Assembly (NCBI GenBank): GCA_003327425.1
Contig: QOQW01000003.1
Span: 1-64,000 of the forward strand
Length of the DNA stretch: 64,000 nt
Direction: 5' to 3'
DNA from: Candidatus Ozemibacter sibiricus
Lineage (GTDB): Bacteria; Muiribacteriota; Ozemobacteria; Ozemobacterales; Ozemobacteraceae
In this document: piece by piece, positions 30,575 to 47,696 of the stretch
Position numbering within the stretch: position 1 is the stretch's first letter
Layout: every line of letters starts with the position of its first letter
The notes under the pieces: model-generated
What the model was told of the DNA's origin: nothing
Database searches by the model: none
What the model saw: the letters and a program-made list of their open reading frames with translations, nothing else
Translations under genes and position numbers: made by a program

Positions 30575-32719
30575 ATGAGATCTCGCACCGGCCGGCAGCA
30601 CCGGCTCGTGGACCCGTTCAGACCTGTTCACGCCGCGCGCCACGGGGTCATCCTGCCGTTCGTCATCGTGCTCATCACCATTCTGACCACGCTGGGCACC
30701 TGGTACCTGTTCTCCACGGTCCAGTCGAAGAACGTCTTCACCGTCTTCTACCGTGATGATCTGGCCCGCCTGATCGCCGAGAGCGCCATCTCCGAGTATC
30801 GCGCCACCATCCACCAGCGCCTGGCCGCCAATCCAGCCCTGGCCAATCTGATCGCCAACCCTGCCGCCCACCCCCGCGGGGTGCCGTTCTCCCTGGCCGA
30901 CCTGCCTGCCACCGCGGAGATGGCCCGCTCGCTGCTGGGCAGCGATCGCCTGGCCCTCGAGGGCACCCTCACCATGCGCAATGTGGATTTCGACCTGATC
31001 GAAGAGATCGGCGGCACCCGCAAGCGCAGCACCTTCGATCGCGAGTACCAGGGCACCTTGCGGTTCACCATGAAGGTGGGGCTGGGGCCGGCCGATAAGC
31101 GCCGCTTCTCGACCTTCATCCACGAGTTCGACGTCAAGCGGGCCTGTCTGCGCAGTCCGCCGAGCCAGCGGGCCGGCCGCGGCTACACCACCAACGCGCT
31201 CAACGATTACGTCTTGTACATCCGGGACGCCTACCAGGAATTCCAGGACATCAACATCGCCGGCAAGTCGCTCAACAACGACGACCGCACCCTGATCATC
31301 GACCACACCAACAGCGGCAAGCGGGGCAAGATCTTCCTGGGATGCGCGCGGGAGAACGACCCCGACCGCACCCAGAAGTTCGTCTTCATCAACGTCAACG
31401 AGCGCATGGACTGGCTGTTGCCCAACCCGCCCCCCGACCTGATCATTCCCTGGGCCGACCTCAAGAAGCCTGAACTGATGCCGAAATTCACCCAGGAACT
31501 CGAAGCGAAAATCGAGGAGGCGAAGCGTCAGGCGCAAGGCCAGGTGAATTTCACCCCCGAGCGGGTCAAGGCCATCATCGCGGTCGAGTACAAACCGCTG
31601 GTCGGCACCCAAGGATGGTGGCAGACCCTGGTGGCCCGCATCAAGGCCCTGTTCGACCGGTTCTTCCGCAACCGTGAAGGCACCACCGTCGGCAACAAAG
31701 AGCGCCCGATCCACCTGCTGGGCCCCCAGGACAACGACCAGAGCATGTGCGATCTGATCGAAGGCAACGTCCGCCAGCGGTTCTGGCAGACCGCGACCTT
31801 CCGCATGGACTTTTCGCAGATCACCGACAACGCCCAGGTCAATCAGGCCATCATGCAGCAGGTCGGCGATCGGTTCAACATCGATCTGCAGTACTACTCC
31901 GACGCCGAACTGAACATGCTCTGGAACAGCCCGTCGGTACCCGATTCGACGAAAGAGATCTATCGCACCGTCAAGTATTTCGAAAACCGCGACAAGACCC
32001 TGCTGATGTCGATGCCCAATGATCAGTTCCCCTTCAAGCCCAAGCCCAACTATCAGACCGACCGGCACTCGCCCGGGGTCTTCCCCAATCCCCCCCTGGT
32101 GGGGCGCACCATCGGCGGCAGCGCGGCAGACTTCACCAACTTCCTGCCCTTCGCGCCGTTCCTGGTGCGCTCGTACCGCTTCGCCAGCTCGCAGGCCTTG
32201 TACAACAGTCATTTCTATGATGCCGAGAAGAATGTCCTGTATCTGAACGGCATCTACATGATCGAGAACGCCGCCGAGGGGCTGATCATCAAACAGGATC
32301 TCAAGTTCGCCGGCCGCGGCGTGCTGCTGTCCTATGGCAATATCACCATCGAAGGCAACTTCACCCGGAACGACCCGGCCAAAGACGGGCCCTGCATCCT
32401 CTACACCTATCGGGGCAACATCGTCGCCAACGCCAAGGCCCCCGGCACCATCGAAGCCTCATTGATCGCGCTCAACTACAAATTTTCGCCGACCGGCGGG
32501 GGCGGCCTGTCGGTCGTCAATTTCTCGGGGCGCAAAGCCCAGGTCAGAGGCAACCTGCTGGCCGACCGCCTCAACCTCGGCTCGATGGCCGCAGGAACAG
32601 AAAACACGATCACGTACGACAGCGAGAACCTCAATGGCGAGATGCTCTACTGTACGACCTTCGGCGGACGCCTCCGCGCCGCCCGGATGACCTACGATGA
32701 CCCGACGGCCCGGCCCTGA
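30575..32719 (+). CDS. PilX-like membrane-anchored pilus-associated protein
   Basis: 714 residues. GGAGGGGG ribosome site upstream. A basic N-terminus (1-24) leads to a single transmembrane helix (GVILPFVIVLITILTTLGTWYLF, 25-47), an arrangement seen in PilX-type and related pilus-assembly proteins rather than in true prepilins because no G-FxxxE site precedes it. The rest is a large extracytoplasmic domain, with a closing right-handed-helix-like region (LKFAGRGVLLSYGNITIEGNF, GGGLSVVNFSGRKAQVRGNLLADRLN). Overlaps the following prepilin gene by 23 nt and belongs to a three-gene cluster. The PilX link is by architecture and context only. Confidence 0.6.
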   Translation: MRSRTGRQHRLVDPFRPVHAARHGVILPFVIVLITILTTLGTWYLFSTVQSKNVFTVFYRDDLARLIAESAISEYRATIHQRLAANPALANLIANPAAHPRGVPFSLADLPATAEMARSLLGSDRLALEGTLTMRNVDFDLIEEIGGTRKRSTFDREYQGTLRFTMKVGLGPADKRRFSTFIHEFDVKRACLRSPPSQRAGRGYTTNALNDYVLYIRDAYQEFQDINIAGKSLNNDDRTLIIDHTNSGKRGKIFLGCARENDPDRTQKFVFINVNERMDWLLPNPPPDLIIPWADLKKPELMPKFTQELEAKIEEAKRQAQGQVNFTPERVKAIIAVEYKPLVGTQGWWQTLVARIKALFDRFFRNREGTTVGNKERPIHLLGPQDNDQSMCDLIEGNVRQRFWQTATFRMDFSQITDNAQVNQAIMQQVGDRFNIDLQYYSDAELNMLWNSPSVPDSTKEIYRTVKYFENRDKTLLMSMPNDQFPFKPKPNYQTDRHSPGVFPNPPLVGRTIGGSAADFTNFLPFAPFLVRSYRFASSQALYNSHFYDAEKNVLYLNGIYMIENAAEGLIIKQDLKFAGRGVLLSYGNITIEGNFTRNDPAKDGPCILYTYRGNIVANAKAPGTIEASLIALNYKFSPTGGGGLSVVNFSGRKAQVRGNLLADRLNLGSMAAGTENTITYDSENLNGEMLYCTTFGGRLRAARMTYDDPTARP

Positions 32720-33357
32720 TCCCCGCGCCCGCCGCGGACCCTCCCGCCGCTTCCCGGCTTTGCCGCCCCGGAGCGGTTCCCCGGGTCCTGGCGCGGGGTC
32801 GGTCGACGGCCTCCTTGGCCTGCCTAGCACTCTCAGGCCGAAGGCCGACTCGCCCCGATCGCCGGCCAGCCCGCCGCCGGATTCCCGATCGCACCGGCCC
32901 GGCAGGCGGCTCGGTGCGCGCGGCTTTTCCTTCCTCGAGATCCTGGTGGCCTGCATCTTCTTGATGGCAGGGCTCATCTACCTGTTCATGGTCTATCGCT
33001 CCTCTCACCAAGGTACGCTGGATTCCTACCGGGAGACCATCGCCTACTGCCTGGCCACCGAAGGGTTAGAATGGGTGGCCGGCCTCGGCTACGAAAATCT
33101 GGTCGCCCTGCTCCAGAATCCTGGCACCTCGTTCTTCCAGCGCTTCCGGCCGGGGGAATTCGTCGACATCCGCGACGTGATCCTGGACAACGGCCGGCCG
33201 CTGCCTTACCCCGAAGATTACCGCCTCTTCAAACGCAAGATCGACCTCAAGCATGATCCGAACCGCCAGATCATCCTGGTCGAAGTCACCGTGACCCCCA
33301 TCGATTCCTTCCTGCGCCGCGAGAGCGTCGTCCTGGCCCGCATCGTCGGGAGGGAAT

Positions 33358-33365
<8 letters not shown>
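32697..33365 (+). CDS. Type II secretion/pilus prepilin-like protein with long leader
   Basis: 222 residues. The prepilin peptidase site and helix are clear at residues 75-95: RGFSFLEILVACIFLMAGLI, with Glu at +5. The unusual point is a 75-residue Pro/Arg/Ser-rich stretch before it, where pseudopilin leaders are normally 6-25 residues. No ATG, GTG or TTG is available in frame closer to the site, so either the leader is real, a CTG start is used, or the frame is disturbed upstream. The start ATG at 32697 lies inside the previous gene. The C-terminal domain (VEVTVTPIDSFLRRESVVLARIVG) resembles GspI/PilV minor pseudopilins. Confidence 0.75.
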
Positions 33366-34805
<1,440 letters not shown>

Positions 34806-40572: not shown

Positions 40573-42546
40573 ATGCCGTCACGACTGCTGTCTGTCGTCT
40601 TCACCGACATCAAAGGCTTCACCGAACGCACCTCGCAGGCCGGACGCGATTTCGCCGTCAAGCTGCGCGAGAAGCACGATGCGCTGCTCAAGCCGATCAT
40701 CCGCCGCTACGAAGGCACCCTGGTCAAGACCATCGGCGACGCCTTCCTGCTGACCTTCGAAAGCCCCACCAACGCCGTGCTCTGCGCCCTGATGATGCAA
40801 GAGGCCCTGCGCACCTACAACCGCACCGCCCCTGCCGAGGAGCGCATCGAGATCCGGATCGCCATCAACACCGGCGAGGTCACCGTGACCGACGGCGACG
40901 TGCTGGGCGACGTGGTCAATGTCGCTTCGCGCGTCGAGCACATCACCGAGGCCAACGAGATCTGGTTCACCGAAGCCACCTACCTGGCCATGAACAAGCA
41001 GGAGGTGCCCACCAGCCTGGTCGGCGAATTCCGGTTGAAAGGGGTGCCCGAAGCGCTCAAAATCTATCGCGTCGTCCAGGACCTCGACTCCGAACAGTTC
41101 AAAATGGCCCTCGCCCGGCAGCAGGAAAAGCTGGCCGCGGACGCCGCCCTGGCCGCCCCCGGTCGCCCCGGGCTGCCTCTGCCCGCCGTCGGTCTCGTCG
41201 CCGCCCTCGTGCTGCTCACCCTGCTGGCCATCCTCTGGACCTGGAAGAACGCCATCCCGCCCCAGCTCCTCGAAGCCAATCGGGCGCTCAACAGCGGCGA
41301 GCCGCGCCGCGCCATCGACGCCGTGATCTCGCTGCTGGCCGAGGCTCCCAACCATCCTCAGGGCCTCGAGCTGCTTCGCCGCAGCCTCGAAGCGGCCGTC
41401 GGCCAGCACCTGGCCAAGAAAGAAACGGCGGCCGCCCGCGCCCTCCTCGATGATCTGCGGGCCCGGTTCGGCTCGCTCGGCCCCCTGCCCGATCTCGAGA
41501 CCGACGTCTCGCTGGCCGAAGCGTACGATCTCGCTCAGCAGGGCCTCCGTGGCCGAGAGCAAGCCGACGAGATCGCCCACCGCCTGGCGACCGAACAGAA
41601 GGACCATGCCCCTACGGTGCACAAGGTGGCGCGGTTCTACCACCGCACCGGCATCCACGGCAGGCGCAGCATCCACTACATGACCGCCGCGGCCGCCTTC
41701 GACCCGGCCAGCTTCGCCCAGGATCCGGAATTCCTCAAGACCATGGATTATTTCCTCATGACCTGGTCTCCAGAGGAGGGGTTCGACGAAACGCGCCAGT
41801 TCATCGCCAGTCACTGCTTCGACCTGTTCGCCGCCACCTTCACTCGCCTCCTGGCCACGACCGACCAGGACAGCCGCAGCGGCCGCTGGAACGCCCTGCG
41901 CATCATGGCTCGGCGAGGGCGGCCGGTCGACCCCACCCCCGTCTATCTGGCCGAAATCCTGAACTCCCCTGGCGAAGAAGATTCCCCGTTGCTCCGCGAA
42001 GCCGTCGAGTATTTCGTAGCGGGCACCGGCACCGCGGCCCTGCCGGCCACGTTCGATCGATTCCCGCTGCTCGAGCGCGGTCTGCTGGCCACCGATTCGC
42101 CCTCCATGCGGCTGGCCGCCGGCCCCTTCTTCCCCCGCCTCGAACCCTGGCTGCGACGCGCGCTGACCGATCCGGGCTCGACCACGGCCCGTCTGAACGC
42201 CTTCCGGGTGCTCGAGGAGAAGGGAATCCCGCCCGATCAGCTCTGGCGGTTCCACGCCGCCCAGGCCATCGACTGGGAGGGGGTGCTGCGCACCGACAAC
42301 CAGACCCGCCGCACGCTCAAGGACGCGGTCGCCTATCTGGCCAGTCATCCGGTTCCAGCCGGGATCGCTGTCCGCACCGACCCCGTGCTGGCTCCCCTGC
42401 GCGAAGCGCTGACCGCCCTCGCCGCCGCCGCGGCTCGCTATGCCGCCCACGCCCGGGGCAACAACTGGCAACCCGAGTTCGCCTCCTGGCAGGCCCTGCA
42501 AGGGGAAGCCGAGGCGGCCGCCAGCCGGCTGCCGCAGGCCCGCTGA
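40573..42546 (+). CDS. Class III adenylyl cyclase with membrane-linked helical domain
   Basis: 657 residues. GGAGG at 40562-40566 supports ATG 40573 over ATG 40567. The cyclase domain comes first (1-190): metal-binding D12 and D56, adenine-specifying K52 (VKTIGDAF) and D109, transition-state N116 and R120 (GDVVNVASR). All catalytic positions are intact and the Lys/Asp pair predicts ATP, giving cAMP. A single helix follows (PAVGLVAALVLLTLLAILWTW, about 205-227) and then about 430 residues of alpha-helical, TPR-like sequence (LNSGEPRRAIDAVISLLAEAPNHPQGLELL). The order catalytic-membrane-sensor is reversed from most bacterial cyclases; the distal part is probably outside the cytosol. Confidence 0.92.
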   Translation: MPSRLLSVVFTDIKGFTERTSQAGRDFAVKLREKHDALLKPIIRRYEGTLVKTIGDAFLLTFESPTNAVLCALMMQEALRTYNRTAPAEERIEIRIAINTGEVTVTDGDVLGDVVNVASRVEHITEANEIWFTEATYLAMNKQEVPTSLVGEFRLKGVPEALKIYRVVQDLDSEQFKMALARQQEKLAADAALAAPGRPGLPLPAVGLVAALVLLTLLAILWTWKNAIPPQLLEANRALNSGEPRRAIDAVISLLAEAPNHPQGLELLRRSLEAAVGQHLAKKETAAARALLDDLRARFGSLGPLPDLETDVSLAEAYDLAQQGLRGREQADEIAHRLATEQKDHAPTVHKVARFYHRTGIHGRRSIHYMTAAAAFDPASFAQDPEFLKTMDYFLMTWSPEEGFDETRQFIASHCFDLFAATFTRLLATTDQDSRSGRWNALRIMARRGRPVDPTPVYLAEILNSPGEEDSPLLREAVEYFVAGTGTAALPATFDRFPLLERGLLATDSPSMRLAAGPFFPRLEPWLRRALTDPGSTTARLNAFRVLEEKGIPPDQLWRFHAAQAIDWEGVLRTDNQTRRTLKDAVAYLASHPVPAGIAVRTDPVLAPLREALTALAAAAARYAAHARGNNWQPEFASWQALQGEAEAAASRLPQAR

Positions 42547-42580
42547 CGGCCCTCGCAAAGATCGCCCCGCGAGAATCGCC

Positions 42581-44737
42581 ATGAGGACACCGCGGCCTGA
42601 CAGATTCCGGGGTGCGATCTTCTCCCTTCTGGTCACCTGCCTTCTCCTGGCAGGGACGCTGCCCGCCGTCTTCGCCCGGGCCGGGGGCGGCGAGGGGTTC
42701 CCCGGTTCCCCCGGGCCGGGCAGCGGCGGCGGAGGGTCGGGCAGCGATTCCGAAGCCTTCTTCTATTTGCTGTGGCATCTCCTCGATCTCGCCTACCACT
42801 ATCCCCTGATCGGGATCCCATTGATCATCCTGCTCATCATCGCCGCCGCCTACGGAGCCTTCGAAGGCAGAGAACGCTACGTCGACTACACCATCCGGCG
42901 CGGCACACAGGCGCAGCCCCAGGTCGAGCAAGCCCGCGCCGTGGCTCGCTTGCGCCAGCGGGATCCCGCCTGGAACCAGACCGCGTTCCTGGGCCGGGTG
43001 CGACAGGCCTTCCTAGCCATCCAGCACGGCTGGGCCAAGGCCGACCTCGGCACGGCCCAGGCCTTCCTCTCGGATGGAGTGTATGATCGCTTCCAGATCC
43101 TGCTGCGAGAATTGGCCGAGGCCGGCCTGCGCAATCGCGTGACCGACGTGCGAGTGGTCGATACCGCCATTCGCCAGGTGGACAGCGACGATCACTACGA
43201 CACCATCCATGTCGCGATCCGGGCGACCGCCATCGACTGCCTGGTCTCGGCGACGACCGGCCAGTGGGTAGAAGGCCCCACCACGCCCGAGATGTTCGAA
43301 GAGGTCTGGACGTTCCTGCGCCGGCCCAGCGCGCGCACGCTCGCCAGGCCAGGCCTGATCGAAGGATTCTGCCCCAACTGCAGCGCCCCCGTCGAGATGG
43401 CGCGGGTCGCCATCTGCGCCGCCTGTCAGTCCTACCTGCGCTCCGGCGAGCATGACTGGGTGCTCGCGGTCATCACCCAGGCCAGCGAGTGGGCGCCCCG
43501 GCCGGCCACTGCCGTGCCCGGCCTGACCGCCTACCGACAGCTCGATCCCGGCTTCCACCTCCAGCACCTCGAGGACCGCGCCTCGGTCGTCTTCTGGCGA
43601 CATGCCCTCGCCGAACGCCTGGGCGACGTGGGCCCGCTGCGGAAATACGCGCTCGATCCATTCCTCGCCGGCTTCGCCCTCCGCCTGCAACCCGGCGAGG
43701 ACGGTACCCGCCATTTCTTCACCCGTTGCGCCGTGGGCGGCGTCAGGGCCAAAGCCATCCTGCCCGGGGAACCCTTCGACCGCGTCTTCGTCGAGATCGC
43801 CTGGAGCGGCCGCCCGACCGAACGCCGCCGCGACGGCCGGACGGTCGCCGCCGGCCCCGGCACCCGACGGCTGCGCAACGTCTTCGTCCTGGTTCGCCGG
43901 CATGGCGTCACCACCCCGACCCGCACCTCCCTCGACAGCGCCCACTGCCCCAATTGCGGCGCTCCCGAGCAGACCGGCCAGGAGTTCGCCTGCCCCTACT
44001 GCGATACCGTTCTCAATGACGGCTCGCAGGACTGGGTCCTCGAACGCCTCCTCGGGGTCAACGATACTGAAGTCCTGAATGCCATCCGCCAGGCTGGCCA
44101 ACCCAACCGCCCCGCCTCCCGCCCTGCTCCCCGCTCTGGGCCTGACACCGCAGCCCCGACCGCGCAGCCCGGCCTCTCGCCTGAGCCCACGCCCGCGCCG
44201 CCGGCCGCCATGCCACCCGACGCGACTCGGCCCTCGCCGACCGGCCCGTCAGAGACCACGACTGGCAGCGATTCCTCCCTGGATTCCTCTGACCGCCCGC
44301 CTACTCCCCTCCCGAGTCTCGACATCCTGGAATGGCTGGTGGCCACCATGCTGGCCGACGGCGTCATCGACGAGAAGGAGATGGCCCTGTTGCATGACAT
44401 GGGCCGCCGCCTCGGCGTGTCGGAGGCCCGGGTGCTCGAGACGGTGGCTGCCCATCAGGCCGAGCCCCATGGCTTCGACCGCCTGCCCGTACCAGCCACT
44501 CCCTTCGAAGCCAGGGAAATGCTACGGTCCATGGCTGCCATGGCCCTGGCCGACGGACGCCTGACCGACAAGGAGATGGCCCTGCTGATCAGCTTCGGGC
44601 GAAAAGTCGCCCTCTCTCCGCTGGACGTGAACCTGCTGGTCAAGATGGAACGGCAGCGCCTCTTCCAGGAGGCCCGCCGCATCCTGCAAGAGCAGAAGAA
44701 GCTGCTGGATACCCCGGACCACCGTCCCCCTGCCTGA
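42581..44737 (+). CDS. Tim44-like / zinc-ribbon / TerB membrane protein
   Basis: 718 residues. Start ATG 42581 has only a weak site. Domains: signal or helix (FSLLVTCLLLAGTLPAVFARA), Gly/Ser linker, membrane helix (YPLIGIPLIILLIIAAAYGAF), Tim44-like domain (AFLGRVRQAFLAIQHGWAKADLGTAQAFLSDGVYDRFQILL), first Cys2-Cys2 ribbon (CPNCSAP...CAACQ), a second domain, second ribbon (CPNCGAP...CPYCD), Pro/Thr linker, and TerB-like helices (MLADGVIDEKEMALLHDMGRRLG, ALADGRLTDKEMALLISFGRK). The Asp-Gly acidic motifs of TerB may bind metal. Tim44-like proteins bind membranes. Function unknown; another TerB protein lies at 58155. Confidence 0.8.
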   Translation: MRTPRPDRFRGAIFSLLVTCLLLAGTLPAVFARAGGGEGFPGSPGPGSGGGGSGSDSEAFFYLLWHLLDLAYHYPLIGIPLIILLIIAAAYGAFEGRERYVDYTIRRGTQAQPQVEQARAVARLRQRDPAWNQTAFLGRVRQAFLAIQHGWAKADLGTAQAFLSDGVYDRFQILLRELAEAGLRNRVTDVRVVDTAIRQVDSDDHYDTIHVAIRATAIDCLVSATTGQWVEGPTTPEMFEEVWTFLRRPSARTLARPGLIEGFCPNCSAPVEMARVAICAACQSYLRSGEHDWVLAVITQASEWAPRPATAVPGLTAYRQLDPGFHLQHLEDRASVVFWRHALAERLGDVGPLRKYALDPFLAGFALRLQPGEDGTRHFFTRCAVGGVRAKAILPGEPFDRVFVEIAWSGRPTERRRDGRTVAAGPGTRRLRNVFVLVRRHGVTTPTRTSLDSAHCPNCGAPEQTGQEFACPYCDTVLNDGSQDWVLERLLGVNDTEVLNAIRQAGQPNRPASRPAPRSGPDTAAPTAQPGLSPEPTPAPPAAMPPDATRPSPTGPSETTTGSDSSLDSSDRPPTPLPSLDILEWLVATMLADGVIDEKEMALLHDMGRRLGVSEARVLETVAAHQAEPHGFDRLPVPATPFEAREMLRSMAAMALADGRLTDKEMALLISFGRKVALSPLDVNLLVKMERQRLFQEARRILQEQKKLLDTPDHRPPA

Positions 44738-44927: not shown

Positions 44928-47696
44928 TCACCACAACCCGGCTTCGCACTCCCCGAGCAAGGCGTCGAGCGATTGCTCGACCCGCCAGCTTTCCGTTTCC
45001 TCGGCCTCCAGATCAAGGTCGATCGCCATCGCGAACGGATTTCTCCGACAACGTTCCTGGAATTGCGTGACCTCGTCAGGTGTCAGCCCTCCCTGCGAGA
45101 TGCGCTCGATCATCGACGATAGCAAGCTGCCCAGCTCCTGGAGCAGCGCTTCATATTCGGCAGACCGGCAGAACTGCTCATAGTCGCGCAACGGGCGACG
45201 AAGCGGGGGATGCACCGAGCACAGGGGCGTCTCCAGCGTGGCGCCACGCACCGGATGATACACGCCACCGGCCGGACAGACGCAGGACTTCAGATAGGTC
45301 CAGCGCTGCCGCAAAAGATCGAGCAAGGCGGGACCGGACGCCGGCGGGCACGCGGCCCCCTCGTCTTCCTCCAGGCAATCGAGCGCAAAGATCAGGGAGC
45401 ATTGATGCGCATGGCATTCCTCTACCTCGGCCAGACTCCTTCCGTTCGGTTCGGGCAAGAGGAAGCCCTGGCGCTGGAACAGAGCCGGATGATCGCGCCG
45501 ATAGCGGAACACCGGGAGCCAGAACCCCAGTTTCCGCTGCAGCCGATGCTGGATGTTGATCAACGGGCGCGGCCAGGACCCGAGCGTCACCAGGGTTCGA
45601 CGCTTCCAGAGAGCGGCCGGGAAGGCGCGAAGGAACCGCCGCCACCGCTCCAGGGCCACCCGTAGAAGCCTCCGACCATCGCCAGGCCGAGCCAGCCAGC
45701 CATTGTGCTGCAACCGCCAACCCAACTGGCCTGCCGCCTGCAGCATTTCGAACGCCAACAGCGGCGCCCCGGCCGCAGCCAGCTCGTCGCTGCGCACCAA
45801 CGCCGCCGCGCCCAGCTGACACGCCGCTTTCTCGAACCACACCGCGCCCTGACCATCTTTCTCCCATGGAGGCGGGGAGAAATCCCAGTCCCCGATTTCC
45901 ACGGCCTGCTGGAGCACGTCGAACAGACCCAGCCGAGCCATGGAAGCGACTACCTGACACTCGGCCGGACCGAGCGGCTGATCCTCGGCCACCGCGTCGG
46001 CCAGACGGGCGGCGGCCCGTTCCAACCTCCGATGCACCAAGGGCTGGAGAGCCACCCGCAGCGCCATCACCGGCCCGAATGTCCGCGCGGCGTGGGGCTC
46101 ACGCCATTCCTGGCGGACCGAGGCCACCACCTGCGCCACCAGGGCCTGTCGTTGTCGAGCCTGGAGCGGATCGATGGGCCCGGTGGCCAGGCGGTATCTC
46201 TCCTCGGTTTCTCGCACGACGGCCGGCGCCAGCACCGCGGCGGCACTGGCCTGGATCGCCAAAAGCGCCTGCCGGGTCTCGGCCGACCCCTCCCAGGCCA
46301 GGGCGATCCGCGCCAGGATCCAGGGCTGGAGGGGATCGGCAGCGATCTCCCGCCCCTCCAGACGCATCTGGGCGAGATAGCAGCAGCCGTAGGGCTCTTC
46401 CCAGGCCGCCGCGCGCCCCAACCAGCGGATGCCTTCCAGCACATCCCGGGCCAGACCCGCCCCCCGCACCAGCATCTCGCCGTAGTTGGCCATGGCGACC
46501 GGCAGTCCTTGCAGGGCCGCCTGCCGGAACCACCGCACGGCCTGGGCCTCATCGCGCGGCACGCCAATCCCATTGTCGTACCGCCATCCCAGCAGATTCA
46601 TGGCTTCGAGATCCCCTTGCTCAGCGGCGGCCGTCAGCAGCGCGAGCCCGCGGGCCGGGTCGCTTCCCGGCCAGCCGCCTTGCAGGAGGAGCGTTCCCAG
46701 GCAACGCCTGGCCAGCGGCTGCCCACGCGCCAGCCCCAGCTCATACCATCGCCGGGCTTCCGGAAAATCCGGCTGGCCGGTGGCCTTCCCGGATTCGTAC
46801 AAGGACCCCAGGAAAACGGGGGCCCAGGCCGATCCCTGCGCCGAGGCCTGTCGGGCCTGGTCGAGCGCGGCCGCGACATCGACGGTCCCGAAATACCCAT
46901 AGGCATGGGCTTCCGCCAGATATTCCCGGGCCGCGACCATTCCCTGCTGCGCGGCCTGCTCGAGCCAATGCCGCCCCTGCTCGGGATTCGGTTCGATCCC
47001 CAGACCCCGCGTATAGATCCATCCCAACCGCAGCTGCGCCGGTACCACCCCGTGGAAAGCGGCAATCTGATAGGCGCTGATGGCACGGGGAACATCACGC
47101 GCCCGCCCCTCGCCCCGTTCGGCCATCTCTCCCAGGTGTTGGAAGGACAGGAAGTCGCCAGTCTGAGTGGCACGAGTCAGCCACCACTCCGCCATGGTGG
47201 GATCGGCCCTCGTGCCTTGGCCGTAGCGGTACAACACGCCCAGCACCCCCATGGCGCGAGGAAGGCCCTGTTCAGCGGCCCTTTTCACCAGAGCAAAGGC
47301 CTGTACCGCGTCGGTGGCGACCCCCTCGCCCCGTAGATGCATGAGACCCAATTGGCAGGCGGCCAGCGGCGAACCCAAGGCCAGCGCCCGGTCGTAGAAG
47401 GCCTTCGCCAGCGCGAGGTCGGTCTGGCCGGTCCACCCGCGATGCCACAAGACTCCGAGGTTGTACCAAGCATCGGCCTGCAGCGGAACCGGCAGCAGGG
47501 CGATCCACCACGCCAGGCCTTCTCTGCCCCCCGCCTCTCCCAGAATCGCTCGGCTCACGCCGGCCAGCCATTGCTGGCCGACCTGGCGGGCCTGCTGCAG
47601 CATCAACCGGGGCCAGGCGAAGACCTCGGCACCAGCCCGCCGCCCGACGACCACGAGGACCACCACCAATAGTCCGAATCTAAGGATCCTCCTCAT
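44928..47696 (-). CDS. Exported Sel1-repeat protein with pilin-like Cys tail domain
   Basis: 922 residues from ATG 47696, which has AGGAG upstream; the longer open frame before it is not coding. Signal peptide 1-22 (GLLVVVLVVVGRRAGA). Residues 70-480 hold about eleven Sel1-like repeats (A-x2-LG-x2-Y-x-x-G-x-G): AACQLGLMHLRGEGV, MGVLGVLYRYGQGT, AQLRLGWIYTRGLGI, AMNLLGWRYDNGIGV. The middle 250 residues are helical. Residues 761-830 repeat the tail seen in the lipoprotein at 34092: CHAHQCSLIFALDCL, YLKSCVCPAGGVY, LETPLCSVHP. Sel1 arrays bind partner proteins; the tail hints at the pilus or secretion system. Confidence 0.82.
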   Translation of the reverse strand: MRRILRFGLLVVVLVVVGRRAGAEVFAWPRLMLQQARQVGQQWLAGVSRAILGEAGGREGLAWWIALLPVPLQADAWYNLGVLWHRGWTGQTDLALAKAFYDRALALGSPLAACQLGLMHLRGEGVATDAVQAFALVKRAAEQGLPRAMGVLGVLYRYGQGTRADPTMAEWWLTRATQTGDFLSFQHLGEMAERGEGRARDVPRAISAYQIAAFHGVVPAQLRLGWIYTRGLGIEPNPEQGRHWLEQAAQQGMVAAREYLAEAHAYGYFGTVDVAAALDQARQASAQGSAWAPVFLGSLYESGKATGQPDFPEARRWYELGLARGQPLARRCLGTLLLQGGWPGSDPARGLALLTAAAEQGDLEAMNLLGWRYDNGIGVPRDEAQAVRWFRQAALQGLPVAMANYGEMLVRGAGLARDVLEGIRWLGRAAAWEEPYGCCYLAQMRLEGREIAADPLQPWILARIALAWEGSAETRQALLAIQASAAAVLAPAVVRETEERYRLATGPIDPLQARQRQALVAQVVASVRQEWREPHAARTFGPVMALRVALQPLVHRRLERAAARLADAVAEDQPLGPAECQVVASMARLGLFDVLQQAVEIGDWDFSPPPWEKDGQGAVWFEKAACQLGAAALVRSDELAAAGAPLLAFEMLQAAGQLGWRLQHNGWLARPGDGRRLLRVALERWRRFLRAFPAALWKRRTLVTLGSWPRPLINIQHRLQRKLGFWLPVFRYRRDHPALFQRQGFLLPEPNGRSLAEVEECHAHQCSLIFALDCLEEDEGAACPPASGPALLDLLRQRWTYLKSCVCPAGGVYHPVRGATLETPLCSVHPPLRRPLRDYEQFCRSAEYEALLQELGSLLSSMIERISQGGLTPDEVTQFQERCRRNPFAMAIDLDLEAEETESWRVEQSLDALLGECEAGLW

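Follow-up and report, generated by a model that had tools for sequence, protein, structure and literature searches.

In the Riflebacteria, a little-studied phylum, pilin heads of the PilJ kind, which probably hold a metal, appear to have been grafted onto exported proteins, and we estimate the probability that these heads act as pilus docking or capping modules at roughly 0.58. According to this model, the head would have been transferred without the class III signal peptide of a pilin, and mostly without the membrane half of its helix, onto exported lipoproteins, TPR/Sel1 scaffolds, VIT-vWA proteins, zinc-ribbon membrane proteins and a membrane protein of about 1900 residues. Such grafts would serve as docking or capping modules by showing a pilin-like surface outside the inner membrane, through which each carrier would engage the cell's own pilus or pseudopilus. 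The reading builds on homology, fold prediction, ligand conservation, the export or anchor segments of the carriers, the operon context of a lipoprotein in the window (the whole 64-kb stretch of DNA that was analysed) and the co-variation of three kinds of carrier with the pilin. From it we infer zinc binding and docking, and also that the two heads found in the window itself, which are divergent, share this role.

The two window heads were noticed as a tail shared by this lipoprotein and by a Sel1-repeat protein, with C, YLK, CPxGGxY and CSxH in the same order. This order is indeed present in both segments, and a six-frame search of the window detected the motif exactly twice, at 34542-34742 on the forward strand and at 45210-45416 on the reverse strand, compared with no occurrence in 1000 residue shuffles of the 324 window ORFs of at least 100 aa. 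Two details of the first-pass annotation needed correction: the spacing YLK-x-x-x-CP holds in the Sel1 protein (YLKSCVCP, three residues) but not in the lipoprotein (YLKAAPQCP, four residues), and the Sel1 segment, given as residues 761-830, was correctly located but has its borders at about residues 758-829 of 922 (45210-45425, reverse strand). Aligned directly by BLASTP, the lipoprotein and the Sel1 segment matched over 14 residues only (E 0.007).

The shared tail is a type IV pilin head, made of the second half of helix alpha1 and a small beta hairpin and missing the part that would insert into the membrane. A search of its own genome with the lipoprotein tail (E up to 10) brought up 14 matches, located on 13 proteins; real pilins were among them, with a pilin start before the head, indicating that the tail corresponds to the second half of alpha1 and the C-terminal hairpin. 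The window carriers themselves have neither a class III signal peptide nor the hydrophobic start of alpha1: their N-termini are a lipobox in the lipoprotein and a Sec-type signal in the Sel1 protein, and no pilin start precedes either head. Building a profile and scanning the genome, as had been proposed from the sequence, brought up more head copies with diverse attached domains. When each of the 14 rows of this own-genome profile was left out in turn and compared with 1000 shuffles per row, 13 rows scored 24 to 106 bits (83.5 bits for the lipoprotein head at 34530..34745, forward strand, where the genome profile matches the same span), against 14.3 bits for the best of all shuffles; the Sel1 tail is the one lower row.

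Structure prediction pointed in the same direction. The lipoprotein tail, modelled from 75 aligned rows (pLDDT 89.6, pTM 0.79), was predicted to form helices at 2-29 and 39-44 and strands at 60-63 and 71-74, so that the second half of alpha1 would pack on a beta hairpin as in type IV pilins; the same arrangement was predicted for the Sel1 segment with lower confidence. Foldseek placed C. difficile PilJ (4ixj) first (E 0.038, probability 1.0), then PilA1, and the eight entries listed by VIA-align were all pilins or pseudopilins, led by PilJ (Z 8.7 over 81 residues), PulG (8.1) and EpsG (8.0), a Z of 8 being close to what this tool describes as common. The head profile also matched pseudopilins among PDB sequences (29jd, E 0.0047; 3gn9, E 0.018); the lipoprotein tail alone, as a single sequence, gave no PDB match at E up to 10. 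Against Pfam and NCBIfam, the heads gave weak matches only, mostly to unrelated families, so that current libraries leave them unmarked, and a plasmid search with a pilin head gave no match. Thus, the proposal that the pattern is the end of a pilin-like protein holds, with real pilins in the own genome and with PilJ as a match of both fold and profile, and the two segments did not come out as different folds, since both models match PilJ, that of the Sel1 protein less confidently.

The own genome encodes 16 head copies on 15 proteins, two of which are pilins (C45 and C38); the profile also recognized C28 (E 4.6e-5) and C1 (E 8.6e-4) as members, and two weaker matches (C5 and C39:19471) are left out of the count. 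Besides the Sel1 protein, the carriers are three lipoproteins (the window one, C22 and C7), two zinc-ribbon proteins with a membrane helix (C4 and C55), a VIT-vWA protein (C16; PF00092 E 6e-25, PF08487 E 1.9e-24), a membrane protein of 1935 residues (C21), an exported protein with two head copies (C6), a TPR protein (C36) and three small membrane-anchored proteins (C39, C28 and C1). In all 15 of them, a strongly hydrophobic export or anchor segment lies upstream of the head. Since the tail sits on many otherwise unrelated exported proteins, the term "adaptor domain" used for it at first is fair, but "mobile" is too strong, because several of the carrier architectures are old and conserved. The 1935-residue protein (L153:3474-9278) carries a nearly complete pilin helix plus head in mid-protein (GFRLAELMIV...), which is kept in related genomes. 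The own genome is also very rich in pilins, as judged by 97 matches to N_methyl (E up to 0.01) and 28 T2SSE matches that exceed the cut-off; C45 is likely its major pilin, because two genes encoding T2SSE ATPase domains immediately precede its gene.

A search of 189 genomes, in which the best candidates of each genome (up to 30) were scored, found copies in at least 38 of the 39 Riflebacteria genomes, the own one included, and in at least 16 of 150 genomes outside the phylum, with at least 1 to 4 copies each. Translation of 18 of the 23 outside matches revealed pilins as well as one lipoprotein, and also three long proteins (about 1160-1522 residues) resembling a Riflebacteria protein (L138); grafting is therefore not confined to the Riflebacteria. 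Seven loci with Riflebacteria-like heads (L073, L079, L088, L139, L089, L090 and L097) bear the labels Methylomirabilis sp. or Erysipelotrichia, which may be wrong. Some proteins carry three heads (L217, 4404-6572; L218, 4648-5808), two of the three being weak in L224 and L225, and a carrier family of about 205 residues has a lipobox anchor in some genomes and a membrane helix in others.

The window lipoprotein (237 aa, 34092..34805, forward strand) has a lipobox (LTGC, residues 21-24), a spacer of about 120 residues rich in Gly-Thr repeats and the C-terminal pilin head, with an orthologue (L216) in the same genus. Its gene starts 105 bases past the third of three minor-pilin-like genes on the same strand, which begin at 30575, 32697 and 33358. 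The first of these (30575..32719) encodes a 714-aa protein with one N-terminal hydrophobic segment and no Pfam or NCBIfam match, which is 80% identical and syntenic in L216 and can be called GspK/PilX-like by position only. The second (32697..33365) encodes a 222-aa protein with the motif RGFSFLEILV and a weak PilV match (TIGR02523, E 0.0063, below the family cut-off), and the third (33358..33987) a 209-aa protein matching PF07963 (E 0.0062), which reaches the cut-off when taken with its in-frame neighbours; both are kept in synteny. A block running from ClpA to an outer-membrane-type gene is preserved in the same-genus genome, where the neighbours are 75-86% identical and the lipoprotein 47%. 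Judged from this gene order, the lipoprotein is part of a conserved minor-pilin-like operon, in line with the link to a pseudopilus or secretion machine that had been suggested for it. The lipid anchor and the Gly-Thr spacer were also rightly described, but the spacer is not kept in the same-genus orthologue, which has a different linker, and we therefore dropped it as a functional part. Elsewhere in the own genome, a signal-peptide protein (C5, L163:3879-4652), which has a weak head-like stretch without the Cys, adjoins a paralogue of the window's minor-pilin-like gene at 33358.

We compared head identity within and between genomes by permutation, taking one genome per genus and including pilin, VIT-vWA, giant, zinc-ribbon, RIR and SGIY heads ("other" architectures were left out) at loci picked by resemblance to conserved heads. 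Pilin and VIT heads were more alike within than between genomes (0.624 versus 0.533, n=8, 0 of 20,000 permutations), to the point that their within-genome identity exceeded that of pilins with pilins between genera (0.556). The same was true of pilin and giant heads (0.576 versus 0.533, n=10, p 0.00025), pilin and zinc-ribbon heads (0.567 versus 0.481, n=7, p 0.0001) and VIT and giant heads (0.576 versus 0.546, n=7, p 0.004); the excess was not significant for VIT and zinc-ribbon heads (n=3, p 0.17). The RIR pilins and SGIY heads used as controls (4 or 5 genomes) showed no excess, at about 20% identity and hence with little power. The excess persisted after G+C correction in the four pairs tried. 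As a point against the docking reading, the own-genome partner ranked first in no more than 6 of 8 (VIT), 4 of 10 (giant) and 5 of 7 (zinc-ribbon) genomes. Shared idiosyncrasies were also found: in MWDD, the pilin and the VIT head display the same shift in the register of the middle Cys, and in JADFZL the pilin, VIT and giant heads have a T-x-P-x-GR insertion in common. In the C45 head, the positions that co-vary are located ahead of YLK and in the loops 49-53 and 67-71. The window's two divergent heads stand outside this set, and their link to pili is the operon for the lipoprotein and family membership for the Sel1 protein.

These results bear on a rival explanation, in which the head of non-pilin carriers is a generic small extracytoplasmic domain for binding or spacing, with no present link to pili. 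That 13 of the 15 own-genome carriers are non-pilins with diverse partners, that similar grafts occur outside the Riflebacteria in the proteins of about 1160-1522 residues and that three-head proteins exist would all suit such a domain. Against it stand the co-variation of heads with the pilin of the same genome and the placement of the window lipoprotein in a minor-pilin-like operon, and we regard it as somewhat doubtful.

The within-genome likeness might instead date from old gene conversion, or the local pilin may have been fused anew several times close to the root of each genus, with no functional matching. To address this, third-base agreement at fourfold sites with the same residue was compared with the expectation from codon usage. 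Silent sites were at expectation for pilin-giant (z 0.3) and pilin-zinc-ribbon pairs (z 0.2), contrary to what conversion would predict; a mild excess for pilin-VIT (z 1.5) and a larger one for VIT-giant pairs (z 2.5) speak for it, and the latter means that some gene conversion is possible. The likeness within genomes thus lies mainly at the protein level, more than at silent sites, and recent gene conversion was not favoured as its main cause, silent sites being near the codon-usage expectation. In a tree of 120 copies, which has few columns and many open forks, pilin, VIT-vWA, giant and zinc-ribbon heads often group by genome lineage and not by architecture: giants L053 and L109 join pilins L054 and L101 (SH-aLRT 96), for instance, and pilin L083 joins zinc-ribbon L119 (SH-aLRT 98). 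Architecture nevertheless also clusters more than chance would give (33 label changes versus a shuffled mean of 75), and within a genus the tree often regroups copies by architecture, as conversion or re-fusion near the genus base would leave them. This tree takes copies of at least 55 residues, leaving out eleven outside-family loci and the pilin L040, and it has L081 (VIT-vWA) entered as a giant and L037 apart from the SGIY heads with which it belongs; the permutation test uses the corrected labels, which include one relabelled PGYB row. Finally, the 10 listed carriers that have the vWA motif all share a similar junction between VIT and head, which makes repeated fusion unlikely. Altogether, we consider conversion or re-fusion without matching rather unlikely as the source of the likeness.

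How the docking head would be held together was assessed from the ligand positions. Across the 131 distinct copies, all but one (130) have the helix Cys, and the last Cys is invariant in the 128 copies with a letter there. Three residues beyond the last Cys, 117 of 126 copies have His and 4 have Cys; the middle Cys occupies one of two registers (44 and 84 copies). A profile of ten CPxGG-type heads found PilJ as the best PDB sequence (E 0.0056) and aligned its C, CKSGGIY and CTKH, corresponding, as counted from the alignment offsets, to Cys36, Cys81, Cys111 and His114, so that Cys, CxxGGxY and CxxH all fall at aligned positions. PilJ reportedly binds a structural zinc, according to a 2014 paper on this protein. 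In the mechanism we favour, the helix Cys, the turn Cys (in CPxGGxY or PExxCxY) and the final CxxH would hold a metal, most likely zinc. The predicted ligands are Cys 34542-34544, Cys 34668-34670, Cys 34728-34730 and His 34737-34739 (forward strand) in the lipoprotein, and Cys 45414-45416, Cys 45276-45278, Cys 45219-45221 and His 45210-45212 (reverse strand) in the Sel1 protein.

The first-pass annotation had thought of pairing between Cys residues and had not considered a Cys3-His metal site, which now appears the likelier arrangement. A disulfide between turn Cys and last Cys, with no metal and with the helix Cys and the His incidental, would be compatible with the export or anchor segments on all 15 own-genome carriers, with the proximity of the two hairpin Cys in a hairpin predicted at the level of secondary structure and with one pilin subfamily (5 of 131 copies) that keeps the three Cys and lacks the His. 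These five copies argue against a strict four-ligand rule. Set against a disulfide are the three Cys and the His kept in nearly all of the 131 copies, the four exchanges of His for Cys and the PilJ alignment over all four residues; moreover, as indirect evidence, neither DsbB nor VKOR was found in the own genome (97.9% complete) by searches that were positive in control genomes. Because Cys3-His aligns with the residues of PilJ, reported as a zinc protein, and because no DsbB or VKOR was found, a zinc clasp is favoured and a disulfide is unlikely; the pilin head is thus probably clasped by a zinc ion.

Membership of the Sel1 tail is less certain. The Sel1 protein (922 aa, 44928..47696, reverse strand) has an N-terminal signal peptide (MRRILRFGLLVVVLVVVGRRAGA), six Sel1 stretches (PF08238, E 1.4e-42) and, at residues 758-829 (45210..45425, reverse strand), a putative remote pilin head suggested by profile, bridge and model. 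Left out of the profile, its tail scored 11.4 bits (E 0.38 for 20,000 sequences), a score reached by none of 1000 own shuffles (best 5.7); with both window rows removed and window ORFs searched, its best domain had 3.8 bits, near noise, and the whole ORF 5.4 bits (E 1.2). A single relative of its C-terminal 210 residues, L070, was found among 28 other genomes; it aligns to Sel1 residues 648-863 (E 1e-11), and its own tail scored 25.7 bits against the 13-row profile without Sel1 (E 3.6e-6 for 5000 sequences). As L070 bridges the Sel1 protein and the other heads, we accepted the Sel1 tail as a probable remote member. The model of the Sel1 stretch (pLDDT 78.6, pTM 0.58) gave weak Foldseek matches, with PilJ second (E 3.5), and VIA scores of Z 7.6 for PilJ, 4.9 for PilA1 and 2.0 for the next, the best unrelated chain; this match is not independent, since the modelling alignment contained other heads. 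A look-alike would be compatible with the tail's low score by itself (11.4 bits, and close to noise when window ORFs only were scanned), its single C-terminal relative in 28 other genomes and a model built on an alignment including other heads; it is nevertheless improbable given the L070 bridge, a score reached by 0 of 2000 shuffles and a PilJ Z of 7.6 against 2.0. In the window, nothing recognized around the Sel1 gene points to pili; it adjoins a gene for a protein with a Tim44/TimA-like domain (42440-44737; NF033779 E 3.6e-15, under the cut-off).

The first interpretation of the shared tail is thus partly supported, including its occurrence on otherwise unrelated proteins, now seen on many exported carriers. 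A more specific extension, which we advance tentatively, is that the head of the own pilin serves as a docking tag, zinc-clasped and species-matched copies of which would allow unrelated envelope proteins, themselves not pilins, to join, cap or sense the pilus. Some grafted heads do show signs of evolving in step with the filament. If true, this would make it possible to predict which proteins of uncultured Riflebacteria associate with pili, and would supply a specificity code open to testing, in a phylum reported to hold exceptionally many unknown gene families (PMC10849945). The comparison also suggests that metal-clasped pilin heads form a wider class than PilJ.

Literature searches on Riflebacteria pili, on Ozemobacter, on concerted evolution of pilins and on lipoprotein-fused pilin domains, with subscription papers mostly uncovered, turned up no description of such grafts, and the known systems closest to them differ from them. 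GspG-type pseudopilins bind calcium. Pseudopilins GspG/PulG/EpsG (1t92, 3gn9) are alike in fold (Z 8.0-8.1) with weak profile similarity, but the listed GspG alignments are limited to the helix and the following loop and have no Cys-His set, and the GspG family PF08334 did not reach its cut-off (best E 0.18 for the heads; E 0.016, under the cut-off, for the double-copy protein). The competence pilin ComGC (NF040999) is weakly similar to 4 of 14 heads (best E 0.0011), but the lipoprotein head, at 15.6 bits against a cut-off of 75, is not a member, and unlike ComGC the window carriers have no pilin N-terminus. Among pilins, C. difficile PilJ is structurally closest to both window heads and shares with them the order Cys, CxSGGxY, CxxH; its dual-pilin fold is confirmed in the literature. 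PilJ is, however, a pilin that starts with its own membrane helix, whereas in the window the head sits on a lipoprotein and on a Sel1 protein, both of which have Sec-type signals. In modular pilins such as PilB of Streptococcus sanguinis, a pilin module is joined to a foreign module such as vWA, and the pilin module is N-terminal, has the class III signal peptide and bears the graft (PMC8179133). Here, the order is reversed or internal and the pilin head is itself the graft, C-terminal or in mid-protein in non-pilins: the proposed arrangement would be the reverse of modular pilins, with the head of a filament subunit moved onto many non-filament proteins across one phylum.
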